Origin: a virus
Reading direction: 5' to 3' (one strand)
Length of the DNA: 45,141 nt
IMG/VR virus record: IMGVR_UViG_3300037089_000136
Span: 1 to 45,141 of that record
This document shows, piece by piece, positions 1,095 to 13,940 of this stretch. The position numbers were made by a program, and so were the translations under genes. Position 1 is the stretch's first letter. Every line of letters begins with the position of its first letter. The notes under the pieces were generated by a model. It worked only from the letters and a program-made list of their open reading frames with translations. It had not been told where the DNA came from and did not search any database.

Positions 1095-1517
1095 TCAGGA
1101 AACCATCCGCTCGCGTGCGATCTTAAGAGCCTCCGCGATCAACCGAGGCGTTGACGCGCGTTGAACCGCGCATTCCCGTATGCGAATCACCTTCCAGCCA
1201 GTCCCCCGCAGCCGCTTTGAAACCAGCCGGTCGCGCCTCCTATTGCCCTCAATCTTCGCGCGCCAGAACTCGACATTGGTTGCAGGAATGCTCCTACATT
1301 TCGTGCATCCGTGCCAGAAACAGCCGTCCACGAAAACTGCCAGCTTCACTCCGGGCCATGCGAAATCCGGCCTACCCTCTACGTGCCAATGCTTCCTGTA
1401 GCCGCGGAGTCCCGCCGACCAAAGGAGTCGGCCAAGGGCAACTTCGGTGGTGCGGTTGCCTCGTGACCGCACTGCCGCCATTATTCTTGATCGGACCTCC
1501 TTGGGTACATTGTCCAT
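1095..1517 (-). CDS. vsr: Vsr-type DNA mismatch endonuclease
   Basis: A 140-aa very-short-patch-repair endonuclease that nicks at T:G mismatches left by deamination of 5-methylcytosine. The start at 1517 is preceded by GGTGAG and gives the family-typical opening (PKEVRSRIMAAVRSR). With this start the residues fall at E. coli Vsr numbering: E25, D51 in GRPDF, and the FVDGCFWHGC block with F67, W68 (intercalating) and H69. The E. coli Thr63-His64 pair is Val-Asp here, a common variant. It lies 54 bp downstream of the m5C methyltransferase, the usual partner. In R-M operons Vsr-fold proteins may also act as the restriction enzyme, so repair and restriction roles are both open. Confidence 0.92.
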   Translation of the reverse strand: MDNVPKEVRSRIMAAVRSRGNRTTEVALGRLLWSAGLRGYRKHWHVEGRPDFAWPGVKLAVFVDGCFWHGCTKCRSIPATNVEFWRAKIEGNRRRDRLVSKRLRGTGWKVIRIRECAVQRASTPRLIAEALKIARERMVS

Positions 1518-1571
1518 AAACTGCTCACCGGCGACCGAATGCACCTCGGTAGTCAAAAGGCGGTATCAGTT

Positions 1572-2663
1572 CTACCGCTTGATCGGCTTGGACGACGCGC
1601 CATGTCTCCGCAGCGCCCGAGCGCATTTTGCCGACGCGATTTTGGCGAAACCGGCAGGGAGGGCATTTCCGACCAGATTGCAGACGTAGTCCATGTACGG
1701 GCAATCAAAAATGTAATCGTCGGGGAATTGCTGGATCGTCGCAGCCTCGCGCACCGAAATCGTAGTGTTGCGGGACGGGTGGCCAAAGCGCCCCTTGCTC
1801 AACGTGGTACAGCCGCCCGTTATGGTCGGGGCAATGCGACCCCACCGCATTCGTCCGTACACGTTGCCGAAACCCTCTTCAGTGTCCTTATGGCAGTCCG
1901 GGCGCATCGCATTCGGCAGTGCAAACCGCTGCTTGCCGGGACGCGCTGCCCGCAGACGATTCATGTTCCTTTCAGTGAGCGTGCGTACTACGTGCCAATC
2001 GTGTTGCCCAGGCCCGCCACGGGCGTTTGCCTGATCCAGGGTTAACGGGCGCGGCATTCGGGCAATTGCATCGCGGACCGTGCACCACGGCAGCAGCCCA
2101 TCTGCTTCCGTCCGAGAATGCGTTGGCTTAGGAAGTTCGATCTTGAAGCCGCGTCCGGCCAGCAATACCAAACGACGTCTATTCTGAGGGACGCCGTAGT
2201 CCGCGAGTTGAAGCACTCCGTACGTCACGCGGTAGTCAGCGTCCTCAAGTCGCTTCACAAATTCGGCGAACAATGGTTTGCCGCGATCGACGAGGCCGGG
2301 TACATTCTCCATCATCACGGCGCGGGGGGTGATTTCCTCGACGAGCCGCGCCATGTCGAGAACGAGCTCGTTTCGCGGGTCGGTCTTCTTCCACTTGCTC
2401 GTCAGGCTTGAAAAGCCCTGGCAGGGGGGGCAACCCACCAGAAAATCGATGCTCCCTCCGGCGATCGTCAGCAGAGCCTTTCCGGTAACCGTTCGGACAT
2501 CTTGCTTGAGGGCATGGACCTCAGGGTGGTTGGCCTTGTACGTGGAGAACGCGTGCGGCTCAATCTCCACGCCAGTAACCACTTTGAATCCAGCCTGCTT
2601 CAGTCCGACCGTCAGACCGCCCGCGCCGGAGAACAAATCTATTGCCACGAGTGGTTTACGCAT
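1572..2663 (-). CDS. DNA (cytosine-5) methyltransferase, cargo R-M type
   Basis: A 363-aa C5 methyltransferase transferring methyl from SAM to cytosine in a specific duplex site. All motifs are visible in order: I (DLFSGAGG), IV with the nucleophilic Cys (GCPPCQGFS), VI (ENVP), VIII (QNRRR), a target-recognition region around residues 195-300, IX (SVREAATIQQFPDDY) and X (VGNALP). The start at 2663 overlaps the end of the upstream ATPase gene by 8 bp; a longer frame to 2711 would run deeper into that gene and has no family similarity. The Dcm-Vsr arrangement and tight coupling to a GHKL ATPase/nuclease gene suggest it protects host DNA as the modification arm of a restriction module. It is distinct from the phage methyltransferase at 11210-12616. 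Confidence 0.93.
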   Translation of the reverse strand: MRKPLVAIDLFSGAGGLTVGLKQAGFKVVTGVEIEPHAFSTYKANHPEVHALKQDVRTVTGKALLTIAGGSIDFLVGCPPCQGFSSLTSKWKKTDPRNELVLDMARLVEEITPRAVMMENVPGLVDRGKPLFAEFVKRLEDADYRVTYGVLQLADYGVPQNRRRLVLLAGRGFKIELPKPTHSRTEADGLLPWCTVRDAIARMPRPLTLDQANARGGPGQHDWHVVRTLTERNMNRLRAARPGKQRFALPNAMRPDCHKDTEEGFGNVYGRMRWGRIAPTITGGCTTLSKGRFGHPSRNTTISVREAATIQQFPDDYIFDCPYMDYVCNLVGNALPAGFAKIASAKCARALRRHGASSKPIKR

Positions 2664-4938
2664 TTGCTTTCTTGCCGATGGCGTTCTTCTTCTGACGGTC
2701 AGCCTCCGCAAGGAAGGCCTCGTGCATCTTTCGCGTCTTCAAAAGGAAGCTCTCCCAGGTTTCGTGGGTCAGTCGTCCGCTGCTGGTAAGTCGCTCGAAG
2801 GCCTGCTTTCCGACGCGCCCGATTGCAAGCCCGTCGCACACAAGGGTTATATGGAAATCAGAATAAGAGTTCTGAAATTCCTGATTTCCCTTCTTACTGA
2901 GGAATTCGCCCATCAGGTCGTTGTAATTGACGATGCGATCCAGTTCTTCGTCTTGCAGCTTGTGCTTGGGCTTCTTGATTTCGATGATCTGTATAACGTT
3001 GTTCTGCGTGCTCATTACAAAGTCGGCCCGCTTTTTGGGATCGCCAAATTCGTCCAGGACGATCGCCTGGCCAGTACGCTGTTCGAAAAACTTGGCGAAT
3101 TCGTGACGCAGTGTTGTAAACGTCTGATTTGCCGTGATGGGCGACCACTGTGGATCGATCAACCAGGGCGAACTCTCGATCAGATTCTGGAAGACCTCCT
3201 CCAGATTGCGTGGATCGTCCTTCAACTTCTCAACCTGCCCGATAACGCGCACGCGGTCGTCCGCGATCCGCCCGAAAGACGCGAGTTCGGCAATCCGAGC
3301 CACACGGAGCACTGCCGTAACGGCGGAAAGAGGGGAGTCCTTTGCGTCCGCAGCCTGGCGCAGTTTTTCATCCAGCGCAACGACCGGCGCCAGCATCAGG
3401 GAAAGCTGAACGAAATTTTCAACGTGCTCCGGATCGTTGATCTCCTCCTCGCGCGCGGTTTGGCCCAGCAGTTTGCCAATGACCATGGCCTGGTGGCGTA
3501 GCCCTTCCTGATCGCCCAAAGGAAACTCCGCCTTCACGCGTTCCTCAAATTTCGCAAGCTCGCGAAATCTATCCCAGGTCTTCTTCTTCATCGGGTCCCG
3601 CGACAGCGTCCCGATTTTCTTGACCACGGCTTGGCCCCACTTCTCAAACTCCTGCCCGAGTTCGTGAGACCACAAAATGTCGCGCCGATCCGTCTGGATC
3701 AGATCCTCGTCGTCATCGAGCCAATCGGCATGGATCTCTCCAACGAGGTAGGATCGAACGCTGTGCTCACCCGTGAATCCCGCTTTTTGATTGAAGATGT
3801 TCGTTTGTGCGGCGATCTTCCCTCGGCAGTAGATACGGACGCCAGCCATTAGGTCGTCCTTGTACGGCTCGCGGGCATATCCGACCCAACCACGCACGGG
3901 GTAAGTGTGGCCGTCGATTGAGAACCCAGCAGACATCCCCGCGATCGGCTTCCCATCCGGGCCGAATCCACGACCGACGATTTCGCCGTTAGATCCGGGC
4001 TGTAGCGTAATTCGCGTGTTGTCCATCAGCACGAGATCGAACTGGCCGACGAGCGCGTTCGCGCCCTCGGCACCTTCCGCCTTGGTGCTATCCTTCAACT
4101 CGATTCGCCAATTGGGAGATTGCACGCCGAAGCGCTGTGCGAGTTGCCGATTGAATTCGTCCATCGTCGGAACTTGCCGGAAAGAGAAGTTCCGGAGAAT
4201 GATTGTCGTGCCAGCTTTCTTCGCCACGGTCCCGTCGAGCTTCCCCGGCTTGGGAATGTAGTCGAAGTCGTTGTCTTGCAGGATTGCCTCCCGGTCGAGC
4301 TTCAAATGGGCGGTCAAATATCCCTTAATCGAGTTGCCAGACGGGTCTTTGCCGTCCGTCTTCTTGCCGCCGCACGATATGATCTCGATCGTCTGGCAAA
4401 TCCCAAAAGGCGCGAGTTTGCCCACGCCCTTTCGTCCCATCACGGCGCGATCATATTTCTTGGAACGATCTCCCCGCTCTTTGTCCGCCCGCCGTTCCCC
4501 GCCGACTACGAGGTAGAACTTGTTCACTTCATCGGGAGTCATTCCGATTCCGTCGTCGACCACCTCGATGGTAAAGCCCTTGTCCTTAACGATGCCTTGG
4601 TGGCGCGTCGCCAAATACTCGCCCATAGGCGCGCGGATCACCACGGAGGTTGCGTCGGCGTCGTAGCTGTTTGCAACCAATTCCGCTATGACTGCGGAGA
4701 CTTTGTCATACAGCTTGACCCCCAGCTTATCCACCGTAAGCCGGGAAATCCGCATCTTATATTTGGGCACACTCTCTCCCTGACGCCGGGGATACCGGCG
4801 CATGAACGGCAAGTTTCTCATTTTATTCCACTTCGCCTCTCGAAAGGAAGCGCCCAAACGATATACTTGCGCGATCACCCTACGCTCAGCCGCAATTGCC
4901 CATCTCACGGCGCGACGAACTTTCTGGGTAGCCCTCAT
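2656..4938 (-). CDS. GHKL (HSP90/MutL/MORC-like) ATPase fused to a PD-(D/E)xK nuclease-like domain
   Basis: A 760-aa protein. The N-terminal half is a GHKL ATPase: N-box ELVANSYDAD (E86, N90, D93), G1 box VDDGIGM (~128-133) and ATP lid GRKGVGK (~168-174). A middle region (~200-500) would be the transducer/S5-like part. The C-terminus has a restriction-nuclease-like signature, RADF (D639) followed by QIIEIKKP (E653-I-K655), the D...ExK pattern of PD-(D/E)xK enzymes, in a context resembling the DUF4263/Shedu type (inference). The ATG at 4938 has AAAGGAG eight bases upstream and overlaps the integrase stop as ATGA. An alternative ATG at 4821 would remove a basic N-terminal extension. Comparative genomics has linked MORC/MutL-type GHKL ATPases with m5C methylases and Vsr in R-M operons. 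I infer the restriction component of such a system. Confidence 0.85.
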   Translation of the reverse strand: MRATQKVRRAVRWAIAAERRVIAQVYRLGASFREAKWNKMRNLPFMRRYPRRQGESVPKYKMRISRLTVDKLGVKLYDKVSAVIAELVANSYDADATSVVIRAPMGEYLATRHQGIVKDKGFTIEVVDDGIGMTPDEVNKFYLVVGGERRADKERGDRSKKYDRAVMGRKGVGKLAPFGICQTIEIISCGGKKTDGKDPSGNSIKGYLTAHLKLDREAILQDNDFDYIPKPGKLDGTVAKKAGTTIILRNFSFRQVPTMDEFNRQLAQRFGVQSPNWRIELKDSTKAEGAEGANALVGQFDLVLMDNTRITLQPGSNGEIVGRGFGPDGKPIAGMSAGFSIDGHTYPVRGWVGYAREPYKDDLMAGVRIYCRGKIAAQTNIFNQKAGFTGEHSVRSYLVGEIHADWLDDDEDLIQTDRRDILWSHELGQEFEKWGQAVVKKIGTLSRDPMKKKTWDRFRELAKFEERVKAEFPLGDQEGLRHQAMVIGKLLGQTAREEEINDPEHVENFVQLSLMLAPVVALDEKLRQAADAKDSPLSAVTAVLRVARIAELASFGRIADDRVRVIGQVEKLKDDPRNLEEVFQNLIESSPWLIDPQWSPITANQTFTTLRHEFAKFFEQRTGQAIVLDEFGDPKKRADFVMSTQNNVIQIIEIKKPKHKLQDEELDRIVNYNDLMGEFLSKKGNQEFQNSYSDFHITLVCDGLAIGRVGKQAFERLTSSGRLTHETWESFLLKTRKMHEAFLAEADRQKKNAIGKKANA

Positions 4939-6359
4939 GCCGCCGACTCCTTTCGCTTGATCTCGACCACCTTGCGGTCCTTGCGCGCCGTCCGCGCGGT
5001 GCGTGCGCGCTCGCGTTGCGCGGCCAGTTCGTCGGACACGGGAGGCTGACTGGCGACCGCCTTGCTAGTACGCGCGGCCTTGGCCCGCTTGTCTTGGATG
5101 AGGCGCGTCAGGTCGTCCTGCCGATTCAGTCCGACGAGAGTGTACTCCTCCGTGATCGCGGTGCTCGCGTGGCCCGCGATCTTGCTCGTCTCGATGCTGC
5201 TGCCGCCAACCTCCTGCCGCCACGTGATGTTGGCGCGGCGCAGGGAGTGCGGTCCAAAGCCAGGGAAGTCGAGGCCACGGTCCTCCTTGGGCGCGCCGTC
5301 CGCACGGATCGACCGCGCCGCCTCCTTGAGAGCCTTCCGGACGCCGGAGTCCCATCGCGGCGCGCCGAGGTCTTCGTCCTGCGGGAAAACCCAATCGTTC
5401 GGTCCCTTGCGTCTAAGGCCCTCGATCCAATCCTTATACCGCTCGGTCAAGCCGCCCAGCGTCAGCGTGCGCTTGCTCTTGGCGGTCTTGGGCACGTCGA
5501 TATCGCCCCGGCAGTGGCGTTGCTCGATCCGGATGATGCCCTTGTCCAGAACGACGTGCTTGATCATCAGGCCGGTGACTTCGGAGATGCGCGTCCCGGT
5601 GTCGAGGCACGTCTCGCAGATTAGGAGGTTTGGCTCCTCCAGTCGCGCCATGACCTGCGCGGTCTGCTCCGGCGAGAGGATGCGCTTCTCGAAGACCTCC
5701 CACTTCTTGGGGAGCTTGACCCACTGGATCGGGTTCGCGTACGAGCGCGGGATGATCTCCCACTCCGTGGCCTTTGTGATCACTCCGCTCATCGCGTTCC
5801 GGATGGCGCACATCGCGTGCCAGGAGGTGCATTCCTCCTGGAGCCAGTCCATGATCGCCTTGGCTTTGAAATCCTTGAGGCGCGTGTCCTTCCACCTGGA
5901 CAGCATGTGGGTAAGGCACCAGTGGTACTTGACCTTAGTGGTGTGCGCGATGAGCGGCCTGCCCGCCGCGATCCGATCGACGTAATCCGTCTTCCACAAC
6001 TCCGCGAGCGGGCCAAAAAGGATGTCGCCGGGTTCCGCGGCTTTGGCTGTGTCCTTGGCCAGGACCGCCGCCTCCGATTTCGTCGGCGCGGCGTTGATCT
6101 CTGCCAGGAATTTGTCGCGCTCCTCGCACGCCTTCTTATGGCTCATCGGCTTCGCCTTGTCCCTGCTCGGGCCAAGCGTCTTGAACGGGCGCGTCGTCTT
6201 GACCGTGCCATCAGGCTGGATCTCATCGAGCCGGTATCGGAAGAACCAGTAATACGACCCGCGATCCTTCCGTTCGTGTACTTCCGGATGCTGCACTCTC
6301 GTCTTCAATTGCCTGCCTCCTGTCAACAGCGTCAGGAGGTTACCCTTGGTGGAGTCCAT
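4935..6359 (-). CDS. tyrosine recombinase / phage integrase
   Basis: A 474-aa site-specific recombinase for phage integration. The N-terminal part (residues ~30-100) carries a basic arm-binding-like region, a SAM-like core-binding domain spans ~110-215, and the catalytic domain ~225-420. The catalytic set is complete: R257 in TGTRISE, a Lys near 294-296, H371-S-L-R374, H397 in AGHAST and Y406 in EEYT. The C-terminal ~65 residues are Arg/Lys/Ala-rich and extend past the usual end. It begins 46 bp after the UvrD-like helicase stop in the same orientation and overlaps the ATPase-nuclease start as ATGA, so it sits inside an operon rather than next to a visible repressor or excisionase. No attP core can be identified from one end alone. 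Confidence 0.95.
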   Translation of the reverse strand: MDSTKGNLLTLLTGGRQLKTRVQHPEVHERKDRGSYYWFFRYRLDEIQPDGTVKTTRPFKTLGPSRDKAKPMSHKKACEERDKFLAEINAAPTKSEAAVLAKDTAKAAEPGDILFGPLAELWKTDYVDRIAAGRPLIAHTTKVKYHWCLTHMLSRWKDTRLKDFKAKAIMDWLQEECTSWHAMCAIRNAMSGVITKATEWEIIPRSYANPIQWVKLPKKWEVFEKRILSPEQTAQVMARLEEPNLLICETCLDTGTRISEVTGLMIKHVVLDKGIIRIEQRHCRGDIDVPKTAKSKRTLTLGGLTERYKDWIEGLRRKGPNDWVFPQDEDLGAPRWDSGVRKALKEAARSIRADGAPKEDRGLDFPGFGPHSLRRANITWRQEVGGSSIETSKIAGHASTAITEEYTLVGLNRQDDLTRLIQDKRAKAARTSKAVASQPPVSDELAAQRERARTARTARKDRKVVEIKRKESAA

Positions 6360-6405: not shown

Positions 6406-8103
6406 CTACAACGCGATGCCCAAGGCATCGCGCTGGCAGACGTGCAACTGCTCGTAAGCGCGGGTCGCGCCCACGTAGAACAACCGGACCACGGAGTCCC
6501 GATCCACGCCGCCGCGCCCGTACTCCGCGTCCGCAGCCTGCGAGAGATCCGGAAACAGATACACCACGTCGGCCTGCCCGCCCTTGACGGAGTGGATCGT
6601 GCCGACGACCACCTTGGGCGTCTCCAGCAACGCGGACGGCCCCCGCCTGGCGGCGATGTCGGCGGGATACTTCACGCGCTCTGCGAGGTCGCTGGTGACG
6701 CGCGCCCGCCACCAATCGAGCAGGCCACGATAGTCGCCCTCCCACGCCGCCATGAGCGAGTCGAACGCTGCGGGTTCGAAGATCTCGTCCAGCCGCTCCA
6801 TCGTCGCAGGCTTGCCGAGGTCCGCGTTCTTGAGCTTCGATTTGACGCCGTGGCGCAGGATGCCCTTGGCTTGCAGCACCTCTGCCCACTGCGCCAGATC
6901 GCCGTTCGTCCACGGGTGGTGCTCGCTGCCGAACGACGGATGCGCGACCAGCAGGGAGAGGATGCGGCTGGTCGTCGTGGTGCGCTTGCTGAACAGCCGG
7001 ATCGGGTTCCAGAAGCCGTTGCTCTTGCGGTACGGATTGTGGAACGGGATGCCGTTCTTCCGCAGCACCTGGATCAGCGGGCGAAGCATGAACGAGCAGG
7101 ACGCCAGGAACATCACGGTCTTGCCCGCCGCGAGGTGCTTCTCTGCGTCCTTGAGGATGGCGCAATCGACGTGCTTGTACGTGTCGCGTTCGGTCAGGTA
7201 CGCGCCGGCCGCATCGCGCGGCAGATACTCTTTGGCCTGGCGCCTGGTCACCGTCTTGATCAGGTTCTCTGCGAGCCGGTGGACCGCGCGCGGCACACGG
7301 AAGGACTGCTTGAGGATGATCTTGTGGTCGTCCGGAATGTCCGGGTCGAGGAACGCCTCCGGTGTGGCCCCCGTGAACGAATAGATGGTCTGGTCGTCGT
7401 CGCCCGCCACGATGAAGTACTCTGCGTGCCGCCCCCACCTGCGGACCAGCGACAACTGCATCCGGTTGAGGTCCTGCGCCTCGTCCGCGAAGATGACGGA
7501 CGGGTTCTTCGGCGCGACTCGCACGTCGCGCAGGCACGTCTCGATCAGGTCGGTGAAGTCGAGGAGACCGTTCTCCCGCTTGTACTCCGACCAGAGTGTT
7601 TCGAACTGGATCAACGTCGCGGGCCAGAGAGCCTTGGGGCGCATCAGCCCACGCACGCGCCCCAACTGCCCGAGCAATTCATCGCCGCCCTTCTCCTGGC
7701 CGTCGTCGTCCTCGTCCGACTCCTCGCCTTCGAGCTTCCCCTGCTGCTTCTGCTTCGTGATCGCCAGGGACGGGTGGTCCTTGTTCCACTCGTCCACATG
7801 GGCCTCCGCGATCTCCGGCCCGTTGAGAGCGTGCCAGCAATGCGAGTGGAGCGTACCCACGCGATCCGCGGCAACGGGCAGATCGCGGCCAGCCAACTCC
7901 GCGGCGGCGCCCCGCGAGAAGGAGGTGATCAGGATGTTCTCCGCGCCGTACCTGTCCACCGCGCGCCGGATCTGGCGCGTCAGGTTGGTGGTCTTGCCGG
8001 TGCCGGGGGGCCCGAAAATCCGATACTCGGACGTGACCTCGTTGTCCCGCCGGCCGATCTCGTCCAACGTGCCGGTCGCGCGTTGCTCAGTTGACGGTGT
8101 CAT
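6406..8103 (-). CDS. UvrD/PcrA-like superfamily 1 DNA helicase
   Basis: A 565-aa SF1A helicase. Walker A GPPGTGKTT lies near residue 30, motif Ia-like ITSFSRGAA follows, motif II is FADEAQD, motif III is AGDDDQTIYSF, and the C-terminal motifs are GTIHSVKGGQAD and LFYVGATRA. The ATG at 8103 has GGGAGG nine bases upstream and overlaps the 3' end of the primase gene by 17 bp. A 31-residue upstream extension lies wholly inside the primase gene and is rejected. A charged linker with a Glu/Asp-rich run sits between the early motifs. It probably unwinds DNA for phage replication or recombination together with the adjacent primase. It is shorter than UvrD (~720 aa), as phage versions often are. Confidence 0.92.
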   Translation of the reverse strand: MTPSTEQRATGTLDEIGRRDNEVTSEYRIFGPPGTGKTTNLTRQIRRAVDRYGAENILITSFSRGAAAELAGRDLPVAADRVGTLHSHCWHALNGPEIAEAHVDEWNKDHPSLAITKQKQQGKLEGEESDEDDDGQEKGGDELLGQLGRVRGLMRPKALWPATLIQFETLWSEYKRENGLLDFTDLIETCLRDVRVAPKNPSVIFADEAQDLNRMQLSLVRRWGRHAEYFIVAGDDDQTIYSFTGATPEAFLDPDIPDDHKIILKQSFRVPRAVHRLAENLIKTVTRRQAKEYLPRDAAGAYLTERDTYKHVDCAILKDAEKHLAAGKTVMFLASCSFMLRPLIQVLRKNGIPFHNPYRKSNGFWNPIRLFSKRTTTTSRILSLLVAHPSFGSEHHPWTNGDLAQWAEVLQAKGILRHGVKSKLKNADLGKPATMERLDEIFEPAAFDSLMAAWEGDYRGLLDWWRARVTSDLAERVKYPADIAARRGPSALLETPKVVVGTIHSVKGGQADVVYLFPDLSQAADAEYGRGGVDRDSVVRLFYVGATRAYEQLHVCQRDALGIAL

Positions 8104-9880
8104 GGGTCGTGCCTCCCTCGTTTTGCGGGTACTCCGCAGGATCGAACTCGTTGATCGGCAGCACCCACCGGGACTGGTCCTTGAACTTGGGGCCACGCAC
8201 CCGGATACTCTGCGCGCCGATTGCAGACAGCATCCCGGCGACAGCCTTGACGGAGAGGTTCTGGAAGGTCGTCTTGTTCACGTACACCTGCACGTCGGAC
8301 GCGCAGACGGTGATCTCGCCGTCCCTGACAAGCGGCTTCCTCTGTTCCTGGAGCCTCTGGCCCTCGATGGCCGGGATGAAGTTCGTCTCGGCCAGATAGT
8401 GCTGGAGGTACATCCTGGCCGCGCCCTCCCATTCCATCTCCTCCGTGCCGGTGACGATGATGCAGGCGTCGAGCATGGTCTGCGACAACGCCTCCCATTC
8501 CTTTGCTTTGATCTTCGGGATGATCCTGCCGACCGTGGCGGCGATGGCCGACCGCACCGACTCGTACGCGATGAGCTTGTTGACGTTGGCGAACTCGATC
8601 TTCTGCCCATCTGCCAACTCCATCCGGTACTGAGGCTCCTTGCCGGTGATCTTCACGAGGCGCGTGACCGGGATGGTCAGTGTCTGCGAGATCCGCTCGC
8701 ACAGGAGCGCCTTCTGCACCTCCGGGTCCGGGGGCGCGGCGGGCGCGTCCGGAGGCTTGGTGGTAGTGTCGGTCGCCTCCTGGCTCGCGGGCGCGGCAGG
8801 GGCACCCTGTGGCGCAGCCACGCCGGTCGTGGGCGGCGGGGCAAGCGCGCCCGGACTGACCGGTGCCGCCGCCGCGCTCCCGCCCGTGCGTTGTTCAGCC
8901 TTGGCGATGGTCCTCTGGTAGTAATCCAGCCGATTGCGCGCCTTGAGGTTGTGGGCCTTGCGGTGGTGGCAGATCAGGTCCACGATCTGCTGCTCCGACA
9001 GACCGGCGTCGATGCCGAAGCACGCCAGTGCCAGATCGTACCCGGACCCGCTCTGGTCCTTGAGGTCGTGACGCTGGCGGTTCCACGTGTTGCGGAACTT
9101 CATGTCCTCGCGCATCCACGCGTCGAGCATCTCCTTGGGGATGGTGGCGTTCGGGTCGATCGTAAGAGGCTTGTCCGCGAACCGCTCCTTCCACTCTCGC
9201 GCCGCGCGCTCCTCCTCCTCCGGGTCGGGAATCTGCGCGTCGTTAAGGTACTCCTCGAAGTCGGAGAGGTTGTAGAAGCGATCCGTCTGGTTGAAGACCG
9301 TCACGTCCTTCGGGTTGGCTGCGTCCTTGTGGTTCTGCGTGCCCGCGATCCGGAGGACGCGCGCCAGATCCGAGAGCCGGTCGTACACCCAGCCTTTCGC
9401 CGCCGACTTGAGGCGCAGCATCGTGTGCCAGCGGGCAACCAGGCGCGCAACGTCGGCGCGTTCCTGTTCGGTTTCGATGAGGTGCGGTTCCTTGAGCAGC
9501 CACCAGGCGTGCGCGCCGTTGCCGGTCGCGACGATGATGGTCGGCGGCATGTCCTTGGGCAGGACGGAGAGCGCGTCGGCCAGCGTGGTCGGAAGCGGCT
9601 TGTTGCCGTGCGCTTCCGACTTCAGATCCAGGTCGGTGCCGATGCCGCAGATGCCCGACACCTCCTCCGACTTGCACCGCCGCGCGGGACCGTGGTCCTC
9701 CTTCGAGAGTCCGACGCCGACGTACACGTCGAGATCTTTGGTAGTGGCCGCGGCGAACTCCGCAGCCTTGGTCACGTCGGTGAACCAGTGGGACCGCTTG
9801 TCCTGCAACGTCCAGATGAGGATGTACTGCTCTTCCGGCTTGTACTGCCACAGCAGTTCGAGAAAGGCGCGCGGCGTCAT
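8087..9880 (-). CDS. PrimPol/RepB-type (archaeo-eukaryotic) primase with C-terminal extension
   Basis: A 597-aa protein whose N-terminal ~300 residues read as an AEP-superfamily primase: GTDLDL with metal-binding D83 and D85, GNGAHAWWLL with H124 (the sxH motif), and RLSDLARVLRIAGTQNHK as the conserved Arg/Asn block. A Pro/Ala-rich linker (~390-440) leads to a C-terminal domain of ~150 residues that I cannot assign. The start at 9880 has GAGGAG upstream and overlaps the HD gene as ATGA. The family primes or extends DNA synthesis at phage and plasmid origins. Followed immediately by an SF1 helicase, it forms the likely replication-initiation module. No separate DNA polymerase is visible in the window. 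Confidence 0.82.
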   Translation of the reverse strand: MTPRAFLELLWQYKPEEQYILIWTLQDKRSHWFTDVTKAAEFAAATTKDLDVYVGVGLSKEDHGPARRCKSEEVSGICGIGTDLDLKSEAHGNKPLPTTLADALSVLPKDMPPTIIVATGNGAHAWWLLKEPHLIETEQERADVARLVARWHTMLRLKSAAKGWVYDRLSDLARVLRIAGTQNHKDAANPKDVTVFNQTDRFYNLSDFEEYLNDAQIPDPEEEERAAREWKERFADKPLTIDPNATIPKEMLDAWMREDMKFRNTWNRQRHDLKDQSGSGYDLALACFGIDAGLSEQQIVDLICHHRKAHNLKARNRLDYYQRTIAKAEQRTGGSAAAAPVSPGALAPPPTTGVAAPQGAPAAPASQEATDTTTKPPDAPAAPPDPEVQKALLCERISQTLTIPVTRLVKITGKEPQYRMELADGQKIEFANVNKLIAYESVRSAIAATVGRIIPKIKAKEWEALSQTMLDACIIVTGTEEMEWEGAARMYLQHYLAETNFIPAIEGQRLQEQRKPLVRDGEITVCASDVQVYVNKTTFQNLSVKAVAGMLSAIGAQSIRVRGPKFKDQSRWVLPINEFDPAEYPQNEGGTTHDTVN

Positions 9881-11213: not shown

Positions 11214-12616
11214 GCCGCCTCCCGAAGCACGCGATCCACGTGGTCGATCCGGGCGCCGATCCACCGCATGACCGGCACCGCCATCGAGTTGCCGATGGCT
11301 TTGTAGCGCGGGCCGTCCGGGGTCGCGCCGTAGAGTTTCGCCCGCTCAATCGAGATGCCGAGGTACTCAGCCATCTCGACAATTTCGTAGGGCTTGAGCT
11401 TGATGCTGTAACCGGGGATGAGCGTGTGGTCGTCGGGGAAGCCCTGCAACCGCTCGCACTCGCGCGGGGTAAGCCGCCGCACCGCCACCCAGGACGCCAG
11501 CAGGGGCGCGCCGTCGCCACGTCCGGACGTACCGGACTGCGCCTTGAGCGGAGGCGCCACCACGTCCGGAGCACCGCGCCCGTTGCGCGCATACCGCGCC
11601 TCGAAGACCATCGGCACGGTGTTGCCGCCATCGGTGGACGTGATGGGCGGCGCGACCTCGCGCGGGACGAATCCGTCCTGCCCGCAACCACGGAACGCGA
11701 CCGCCAGTTGGCCCCCGGCGTTGGGGTGCGACTCGTCGTGCCCCATCGCCCGGAGCGTGGGCGACACGTCCTCCGATGCGTCCGCGCCGTAATCCTTGCA
11801 GGAGAACGCGACCGCTAGCGGGATGCCCTTGCCGGAGCCATCCTCCGTGGCGTCGAAGCCCTCGCCACGCAGGGTGTGGGCGACGAGGTTGTGGTACTCA
11901 CTTCCGGACGGCCCGCTGCCCCGCTTGGCCCACTTCGCGCTTACGGAGTGGCCAACAACGGCGGCGGGGAGGATATGACCGGCCTGAGCCTGTTTGGGAT
12001 CGCCGCCACACGTTCCAAGGCTGTTCGCAGTAATGGCGGTAACGATCTCCCCCGTTTTTCGGCGCGGCGCAAGATCCCGGCGCAGGCTTTCGCGCTCAAA
12101 AAGTACCGCAGCGGGAGCCTGCCACCCTCCAAGATGTGCAACAACGAAGACGCGACGACGGCGCTGGGGCACTCCGAAGAACTGAGCGTCCAGAACTCTG
12201 TAAGCGACCCCGTACCCGAGGTCTGCCAGTGTCCGGAGGACGGTGCCAAACGTCCGTCCTCCGTCGATGGACAGCACTCCGGGGACGTTCTCCCAGACGA
12301 CCCATCGCGGTCGAGCGCGAGCAGCCAATCGGAGAAACTCCAGCGTGAGGTTGCCACGCGGGTCATCCAGTCCAAGCCGGTGGCCAGCGAGGGAGAAGGA
12401 CTGGCAAGGGGTTCCTCCCACGAGAACATCAATTGCTCCTGCGGCGGCGGCGTCGATCTGCGTGAAATCGCCAAAGTTCCTCACCTCCGGATAGCGATGC
12501 GCCAGGACCGCGCTCGCGAACTTGTCGATCTCCGCGTACCAGGCCGCGCGCCAGCCAAGAGGGTGCCACGCGACGGTCGCAGCCTCGATGCCCGAGCAGA
12601 CGGAGCCATAGATCAT
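11210..12616 (-). CDS. phage DNA (cytosine-5) methyltransferase
   Basis: A 468-aa C5 methyltransferase. Motif I is GSVCSGIEAAT, motif IV is GGTPCQSFS with the catalytic Cys, VI is WENVPGV, VIII is PQRRRRVF, IX is RRLTPRECERLQGFPDDH and X is YKAIGNSMAVPV. The target-recognition region (~190-400) is long and Gly-rich, as in many phage orphan methylases. The ATG at 12616 overlaps the upstream PAPS-reductase-like gene as ATGA. Such enzymes probably mask phage DNA from host restriction. No cognate restriction gene is adjacent. Its 5' third overlaps a plausible second gene in another frame (11941-12429), and the codons at that point are unusually AT-rich for this gene. Confidence 0.94.
   Translation of the reverse strand: MIYGSVCSGIEAATVAWHPLGWRAAWYAEIDKFASAVLAHRYPEVRNFGDFTQIDAAAAGAIDVLVGGTPCQSFSLAGHRLGLDDPRGNLTLEFLRLAARARPRWVVWENVPGVLSIDGGRTFGTVLRTLADLGYGVAYRVLDAQFFGVPQRRRRVFVVAHLGGWQAPAAVLFERESLRRDLAPRRKTGEIVTAITANSLGTCGGDPKQAQAGHILPAAVVGHSVSAKWAKRGSGPSGSEYHNLVAHTLRGEGFDATEDGSGKGIPLAVAFSCKDYGADASEDVSPTLRAMGHDESHPNAGGQLAVAFRGCGQDGFVPREVAPPITSTDGGNTVPMVFEARYARNGRGAPDVVAPPLKAQSGTSGRGDGAPLLASWVAVRRLTPRECERLQGFPDDHTLIPGYSIKLKPYEIVEMAEYLGISIERAKLYGATPDGPRYKAIGNSMAVPVMRWIGARIDHVDRVLREAA
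11941..12429 (-). CDS. overlapping gene inside the phage m5C methyltransferase (alternative frame)
   Basis: A 162-aa frame (MFSWEEPLASPSPSLATG..., later SAKACAGILRRAEKRG) wholly within the methyltransferase, same strand, different frame. Its ATG at 12429 is preceded by CAGGAG with a six-base spacer, the optimum. In the methyltransferase frame this stretch is GGA GCA ATT GAT GTT, AT-leaning codons in a gene that otherwise prefers G/C third positions, as if the site were kept for a second start. From memory, proteins beginning MF.WEEP and containing ACAGILRRAEKRG are annotated beside or inside many phage cytosine methylase genes. Part of that conservation could be a by-product of methylase conservation. 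Function is unknown; a regulator or partner of the methylase is a guess. Confidence 0.55.
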   Translation of the reverse strand: MFSWEEPLASPSPSLATGLDWMTRVATSRWSFSDWLLALDRDGSSGRTSPECCPSTEDGRLAPSSGHWQTSGTGSLTEFWTLSSSECPSAVVASSLLHILEGGRLPLRYFLSAKACAGILRRAEKRGRSLPPLLRTALERVAAIPNRLRPVISSPPPLLATP

Positions 12617-13467
12617 ACGCCGCACATCCCGATGCACTCGTTGTCCCAGGTGGGATCGAGCAACAACTGGCGGCGGTCCACGCCGTCGAGGTCTGCGCTC
12701 CGAAGCGGAATGCACTCCCGGTAAACGTAGAGTTTCTGATCGAGGCCGCGGTTGACTATGTTGCCGGGAATCCGAAGCGCATCATCGATCTCGACCGCCC
12801 GCGCCCATCCATCCGGGTCCGTGTCCCGCAGGTGCTTCCATTCGGCGTTCGACTTGAACGGGCAGAACACGCAGGCAGAGCGCGGGACAGCGTGCGGCAC
12901 ATTCTCCTGGAGCCAGGCGATGCAGTCCTTGCGCGTCATGCGGCGGTCGAGCAGCGGGAAGACCGGCTGGAACTTCGACTCGCCGGTGATCCACCGTTCG
13001 TAGATCCTGCTGGCGCGGCTTCGCTCGTCAAACGAGATTCCGAAAGCCTGAGTCACCTGGACGCTCTTCGGAATCCGCTGCCTCGGCATCAGCCCGATAA
13101 CCTCGCGCCGGATGTACCTCTCGATCACGCGCACCTTGTACTCGTAGGTGCATTGACGCCGCACGATACCCGACTGCGACCCTTCTTTCGCTGCCGTGTA
13201 TGCCGGGATGGATGCGAACCGCTGCTTCGTGGAGTTCTCGCCGCGCAGGAGGTCGTCGCCCAACCTGCTACCGATGCTCCGAACAATGATCTGCGGTCCT
13301 TTCAAGGACTGGAGCCACGCAAGGTGCCGGTACACTCCCGCAGGTTCCTCGCCCGTGTCTGCAAAGACGGCAACCTCAATCTGCGGCATGATCTCGCCAC
13401 GCATGTAAGCGAGGTACACCCACGTGGACTGAACGCCCGCGCCGAGGTTCAGAACGTGATGGCTCAC
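12613..13467 (-). CDS. PAPS-reductase/PP-loop ATPase family phage protein
   Basis: A 284-aa protein of the phosphoadenosine-phosphosulfate reductase-like N-type ATP pyrophosphatase superfamily. The PP-loop is LNLGAGVQST at residues ~6-15, a variant of SGGxxS; the acceptor region VAVFADTGEEP follows, and a conserved CVFCPF cysteine pair sits near residue 200. It begins at a GTG at 13467 that overlaps the upstream stop as GTGA. Relatives include sulfate-assimilation reductases, DndC of DNA phosphorothioation and tRNA thiolation enzymes. Phage copies are usually next to methylases and of unproven function. Adjacency to the m5C methyltransferase makes nucleic-acid modification a reasonable hypothesis. 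Confidence 0.85.
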   Translation of the reverse strand: MSHHVLNLGAGVQSTWVYLAYMRGEIMPQIEVAVFADTGEEPAGVYRHLAWLQSLKGPQIIVRSIGSRLGDDLLRGENSTKQRFASIPAYTAAKEGSQSGIVRRQCTYEYKVRVIERYIRREVIGLMPRQRIPKSVQVTQAFGISFDERSRASRIYERWITGESKFQPVFPLLDRRMTRKDCIAWLQENVPHAVPRSACVFCPFKSNAEWKHLRDTDPDGWARAVEIDDALRIPGNIVNRGLDQKLYVYRECIPLRSADLDGVDRRQLLLDPTWDNECIGMCGV

Positions 13468-13940
13468 TCGGCACGCCCCGTCCACGGACTCGCAGTCCAC
13501 TTGCACCCGTGGCAACAGGCGCACTCGCGCGGCAAGCCGGAGTCGGCCCACCTATAAACGAACCGCCCACAGGCCGCGCACGTCCACTTCAGGAACGCGC
13601 CAGGAGCCGGGTCAAACGCGGTGCGCAACCGCACCCGCGAGATCGCTTCCTCGCTCGCCTTTACACGCCGCATCCCGTCCTTGCAACGGTGATGCCTCTG
13701 CGTGTGCTCCTTCACCGCCTCCGCCGACCCCAGATGGCGACCACACGCGCCGCATTCGAAGTTGCACGGCCCATCGCCAGCGCGGAAAGCCACTGGAACG
13801 CGCCGGGGCGCAATCGGAACGAGCCGTTCGTAAGGCTCCGACGAATCGCGGAACTCGAAGTAAATGCTCCTGCGCCGCAGCATGACGACCCTTGGGGAAC
13901 GCAAGGCACGGTCGATCCGATCCAACTCGTCCGCGAACAT
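13464..13940 (-). CDS. Cys/His-rich zinc-finger-like protein
   Basis: A 158-aa protein from the ATG at 13940, preceded by AGGAGG and joined to the VRR-NUC gene by a TGATG overlap. It contains a C2H2-like finger (CGACGRHLGSAEAVKEHTQRHH, shown only as spacing C-x2-C-x12-H-x4-H), then WTCAACGRF and ECACCHGC, which make a second Cys4 site. The N-terminal 60 residues form no recognised domain. DNA or RNA binding is likely from the fingers; no family is recognised. Confidence 0.7.
   Translation of the reverse strand: MFADELDRIDRALRSPRVVMLRRRSIYFEFRDSSEPYERLVPIAPRRVPVAFRAGDGPCNFECGACGRHLGSAEAVKEHTQRHHRCKDGMRRVKASEEAISRVRLRTAFDPAPGAFLKWTCAACGRFVYRWADSGLPRECACCHGCKWTASPWTGRAE

Follow-up and report, generated by a model that had tools for sequence, protein, structure and literature searches.

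The window, by which we mean the whole 45,141-base virus record analysed here, very probably holds a divergent, paraMORC3/BbrUII-like type II restriction-modification-Vsr operon, which a tailed temperate phage would carry as cargo next to its integrase. The restriction component, R, is a paraMORC3 protein, and the cassette is a divergent example of a family described since 2008, not a new kind of defence system. The original prediction had regarded the fusion of a GHKL ATPase to a nuclease as uncharacterised, a view that was not upheld, as such proteins are already on record as paraMORC3, as the BbrUII/HgiDII family of NCBIfam and as the GHKL-Shedu protein VcSduA. What the cassette contributes is a divergent branch of this family that is associated with phages.

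Gene organization of the cassette

The presence of portal, head protease, major capsid and tail genes in the window identified its source as a tailed phage. Reading leftwards along the minus strand, the genes were arranged in the order UvrD-like helicase (6406-8196), tyrosine integrase of the phage (4935..6359), R (2656..4770), m5C DNA methylase M (1572..2663), very-short-patch repair endonuclease Vsr (V; 1095..1517) and thermonuclease (322-888). The integrase, which was recognized by PF00589 (E = 2.5e-14) and phrog_1 (E = 6.4e-41), is a neighbour lying outside the R-M module. M (363 aa; PF00145, E = 6.4e-59) starts at ATG 2663 with an 8-base overlap with the R stop (ATGCGTAA), and PCQ, ENV and QNRRR motifs were read from its translation. 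Vsr most likely starts at ATG 1517, its frame being open to TTG 1556; its score of 103.9 bits with TIGR00632 passed the curated cut-off of 97.85 bits, and PF03852 was also matched (E = 3.8e-19). The predicted arrangement of an m5C methylase overlapping R and followed by Vsr was thus confirmed. In another part of the window, positions 12613-13551 encode a phosphoadenosine phosphosulfate reductase-like phage gene (phrog_424, E = 2.5e-35) without a Pfam match at 0.001.

Translational start of R

Judging from comparison with its relatives, R most likely starts at GTG 4770 as a protein of 704 aa, not at ATG 4938, from which the original prediction had derived a 760-aa protein coupled to the integrase. 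The alignment with the NCBIfam model NF050001 begins at residue 60 of the 760-aa frame, and an alignment of 12 relatives placed the onset of homology at residues 57-62. The N-termini of the relatives in loci L014 (MPKYSMKISRL), L020 (MSRYKMTISRL), L015 (MARQYEMQISRM) and L021 (MTPKYAMKISRL) all align with VPKYKMRISRL at GTG 4770, upstream of which GGGAGAG is located. The 56-residue extension yielded no significant homologue in phmmer and tblastn searches and showed a flat, non-coding-like codon-position GC (0.55/0.54/0.59, against 0.61/0.38/0.70 in the rest of R); as the extension is short, this composition test is weak by itself, and the argument is carried by the homology.

The letters ATGA, in which the proposed start overlaps the end of the integrase gene, were indeed found as predicted, with AAAGGAG upstream, and no stop codon interrupts the frame between there and GTG 4770, features that speak for the longer protein. 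Nevertheless, given the starts of the relatives and the properties of the extension, a 760-aa R forming one translational unit with the integrase is highly improbable; the frame is open across this stretch by chance. The two genes are separated by a 164-bp gap (4771..4934, minus strand), the place of the formerly proposed N-terminal extension, and they likewise lie apart by about 214 bp in L020 and 141 bp in L126, as calculated from the coordinates. This gap together with the GTG 4770 start makes translational coupling to the integrase unlikely, although transcripts entering from the integrase side may still cover R. The cassette's own promoter probably lies in this gap; a promoter scan of its minus strand did not find a sigma-70-like site.

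Domain architecture and predicted structure of R

R was collinear from end to end with NF050001, the "BbrUII/HgiDII family restriction enzyme" model (E = 2.7e-73), which was also matched by 60/60 members of a wider alignment of relatives. R.BbrUII and R.HgiDII resemble R in this full-length collinearity and in having an m5C methylase partner; however, the score of 247.6 bits did not reach the curated equivalog cut-off of 550 bits, and R is therefore not an orthologue of these enzymes.

The predicted structure of R (pLDDT 90.9) comprises a GHKL and S5 ATPase module (aa 1-395) and a C-terminal PD-(D/E)xK nuclease domain (about aa 500-704). In the former, HATPase_c_3 was matched with an E-value of 6.5e-16, and the core at aa 7-395 aligned with the ATPase module of MORC3 (Z = 22.9, 294 residues), the best structural matches being MORC3, MORC2 and Hsp90-type ATPases. 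A Foldseek search with the complete model returned mainly ATPase matches; the C-terminal domain was therefore folded separately (pLDDT 87.3), and its structural matches were N.BspD6I (Z = 9.4), Shedu (8.9), E. coli SduA (8.5) and FokI (7.9). Z values near 9 are modest; the top rows all are PD-(D/E)xK restriction nucleases sharing one fold, in agreement with the motif, which supports the PD-(D/E)xK core predicted for this domain. By sequence profile, the C-terminal domain gave weak matches to PDB entries (EndoMS/NucS, 0.03; Shedu, 0.44). A weak SduA_C/Shedu match was also seen at aa 580-661, where PF14082 (SduA_C) scored 24.4 bits with whole R and 26.7 bits with the C-terminal domain, below the Pfam gathering score of 27. 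The suspected relationship to Shedu/DUF4263-type profiles was thus borne out as a resemblance, and not at the level of the gathering score.

Residues E86, N90, D93, D128, G130, G132, D639 and E653 were invariant in 60/60 relatives, K655 was kept in 57/60 and E580 in 52/60. Both the GHKL domain with N-box, DDGIGM and GRKGVGK and the D-x13-E-I-K nuclease signature (D639/E653/K655) noted in the original prediction are therefore present and conserved. On the basis of the MORC/Hsp90-type module, the PD-(D/E)xK fold and these conserved motif residues, R fits the definition of paraMORC3 given by Iyer, Abhiman and Aravind in 2008, namely a protein with a GHKL and S5 module and a C-terminal RE-fold nuclease carrying E-D-ExK (PMC2292703). 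The GHKL families of that paper were found in neighbourhoods with Dcm and Vsr (PMC2292703), and the methylase/Vsr neighbourhood was likewise observed in the window and among the relatives. R is the same as paraMORC3 in architecture and differs in lying beside a phage integrase.

Recurrence of the R-M-Vsr cassette

Scanning viral and genome collections with a single sequence retrieved no relatives of R; with an alignment as the query, they were detected in 149 viral contigs and in at least 548 stretches of genomic DNA. Inspection covered the best 80 of the 149 viral and the best 79 of the at least 548 genomic loci, several of which are near-duplicates. An m5C methylase lay no more than 1 kb from R in 77/80 of the viral and 39/61 of the closer genomic loci, and a Vsr gene was present no further than 2 kb away in 13/80 and 18/61, respectively. 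The trio thus recurs in other genomes as had been anticipated, and the proposal of a restriction-modification-Vsr module built on a GHKL ATPase and a PD-(D/E)xK nuclease is supported and widely recurrent. The order integrase-R-M-Vsr was also observed in L020 (R 53% identical), L126 and L144 (39%); the integrase counts among the relatives are lower bounds, as the integrase profile used is weak.

Closely related cassettes, with R 50-54% identical, ride between phage genes on a lambdoid (L015), a Mu-like (L021) and an integrase-bearing phage (L020). The cassette of L015 is flanked by replication genes on one side and an HNH/antiterminator Q block on the other, that of L021 by a late activator and by spanin/terminase genes, and that of L020 by phage genes on both sides. 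Since the genes that L014-L021 have in common with the window are only R and M, plus Vsr in L020, the cassette moves independently of the window's phage. The carriage of such a fusion by a phage, which had been taken as a further novelty, also has a precedent in a deposited P2-like phage, Escherichia phage PhiR44_1 (PV340563.1), in which a ParaMORC3 is annotated next to Dcm. Its R is 25% identical to that of the window and, in contrast to the window, its R and adjoining m5C methylase genes converge and lie away from the integrase; Vsr was not found at this locus.

Several of the inspected loci deviated from the common arrangement. In Nocardia loci (L100-L105, L108, L113, L117, L121, L124, L125, L127, L143, L150 and L153), R is about 40% identical with D...EIK intact, and no m5C methylase was found within 1 kb of R; the neighbours of R in L100 are RlaP, globin-reductase, DivIVA and phosphoglycerate dehydrogenase genes. 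A distant R (24%) at L035:4955-6853 lies among the structural genes of a virus that is 33-48% identical to the window's phage in these genes, and a methylase was not found near it. In L094, L114, L116, L119 and L147, the methylase and Vsr lie between two oppositely oriented R genes of the family.

Pairing of R and M also varied: methylases of the window type (49-56%) accompany R proteins only 23-27% identical in L024, L038, L045, L046, L062, L158-L161, L167 and L169, while many R proteins at 38-41% identity in L098-L144 pair with methylases at 25-28%. From these identities alone, R and M partners seem to have been exchanged between loci. If such exchange has really taken place, comparing the R-M pairs could reveal the part of R that reads the site. 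A more far-reaching version would make the window's cassette a member of a distinct paraMORC3 subfamily (R 49-62% identical) that occurs in unrelated phages and repeatedly directly downstream of unrelated integrases, in the order integrase-R-M-Vsr (window and L020; L126/L144 at 39%), and whose methylase has been swapped among R classes that differ greatly. Such a cassette, linked to integrases and having interchangeable parts and its own specificity, appears quite improbable to us.

Proposed function

By analogy with the family, M would methylate cytosine at C5 within the recognition site, and R would bind the same site when it is unmethylated, whereupon ATP-driven closure of the R GHKL dimer would lead the C-terminal PD-(D/E)xK domain to cut incoming DNA. 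Vsr would repair the T:G mismatches arising from m5C deamination. Such an operon may guard the lysogen against other phages and stabilize the prophage. Restriction of unmethylated DNA and lysogen protection, both part of the original prediction, as well as cutting, methylation sensitivity, ATP gating, site specificity and an anti-phage effect of R, are what we infer from family knowledge.

Within the family, M.HgiDII methylates GTCGAC (PMC5867850). This site is not transferable to the window, because R scores far below the NF050001 cut-off and M shares only 34% identity with the methylase encoded in L063, a locus whose R does reach that cut-off. GTCGAC occurs 6 times in the window against 23 expected, and other 6-base palindromes were likewise strongly depleted (GGATCC, 0 against 22; CTCGAG, 2 against 26; TGCGCA, 1 against 19). 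As many palindromes are rare, the derivation of a recognition site from this depletion was rejected; the depletion suggests exposure to host restriction.

R could otherwise act alone as a Shedu-like anti-phage nuclease that responds to the structure of phage DNA and not to an unmethylated recognition site, with M and Vsr merely linked to it. The SduA_C resemblance and the Shedu fold match point in this direction, as does VcSduA, a type I-D GHKL-Shedu protein that was experimentally shown to protect against phages and whose E27A (ATPase) and K557A (nuclease) mutants each lose phage defence (PMC12137116). The loss of defence in these two mutants counts equally for the reading of R as a restriction enzyme with an ATPase and a nuclease domain. 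VcSduA shares the GHKL ATPase and PD-(D/E)xK nuclease with R and is likened to it by architecture; unlike the window cassette, it is described in the passages considered with no mention of a cognate methylase or Vsr (PMC12137116). The Nocardia relatives without a linked m5C methylase and the apparent exchangeability of R and M are also in line with a stand-alone nuclease. On the other hand, M overlaps R in the window and m5C methylases accompany nearly all inspected viral relatives, members of the BbrUII/HgiDII family are named restriction enzymes by NCBI, and M.HgiDII methylates GTCGAC. We give this explanation little credence.

Phage cargo or host flank

The 3' side of the integrase gene is the usual attP side, as in lambda and P2. 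It was considered whether R-M-Vsr might represent host or island DNA just past the prophage attachment site, with the integrase as the last phage gene. Consistent with this location, GC changes at the integrase/R border, the left-flank genes have no counterpart in the relatives of the window's phage, and one of these relatives, G004, stops exactly at the integrase stop codon, where it appears trimmed, while another, G001, ends inside the integrase. In addition, the other att site is not visible, as the far end of the window falls within the portal gene, and the cassette could sit beyond attP. Against it stand the related cassettes enclosed by phage genes in three unrelated phages, one of which shows the same integrase-R-M-Vsr order, and the classification of the whole contig as viral. 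We therefore consider a host flank unlikely.

The cassette is more likely phage cargo, a reading based on the precedents in other phages. The drop in GC from the integrase to R, with GC3 values of 0.70 in R and 0.66 in Vsr against 0.80-0.88 in the neighbouring phage genes, is as expected of acquired cargo. An empty site was not found in the relatives of the window's phage, as G001 and G004 carry the helicase and integrase and end at or inside the latter, and a search for a tRNA gene fit to serve as an att site likewise found none. G004 (L218) further contains, just upstream of its terminase, two genes (1115-2689 and 3245-4555) that look from their translations like fusions of a ParB-like domain with a DNA methylase.
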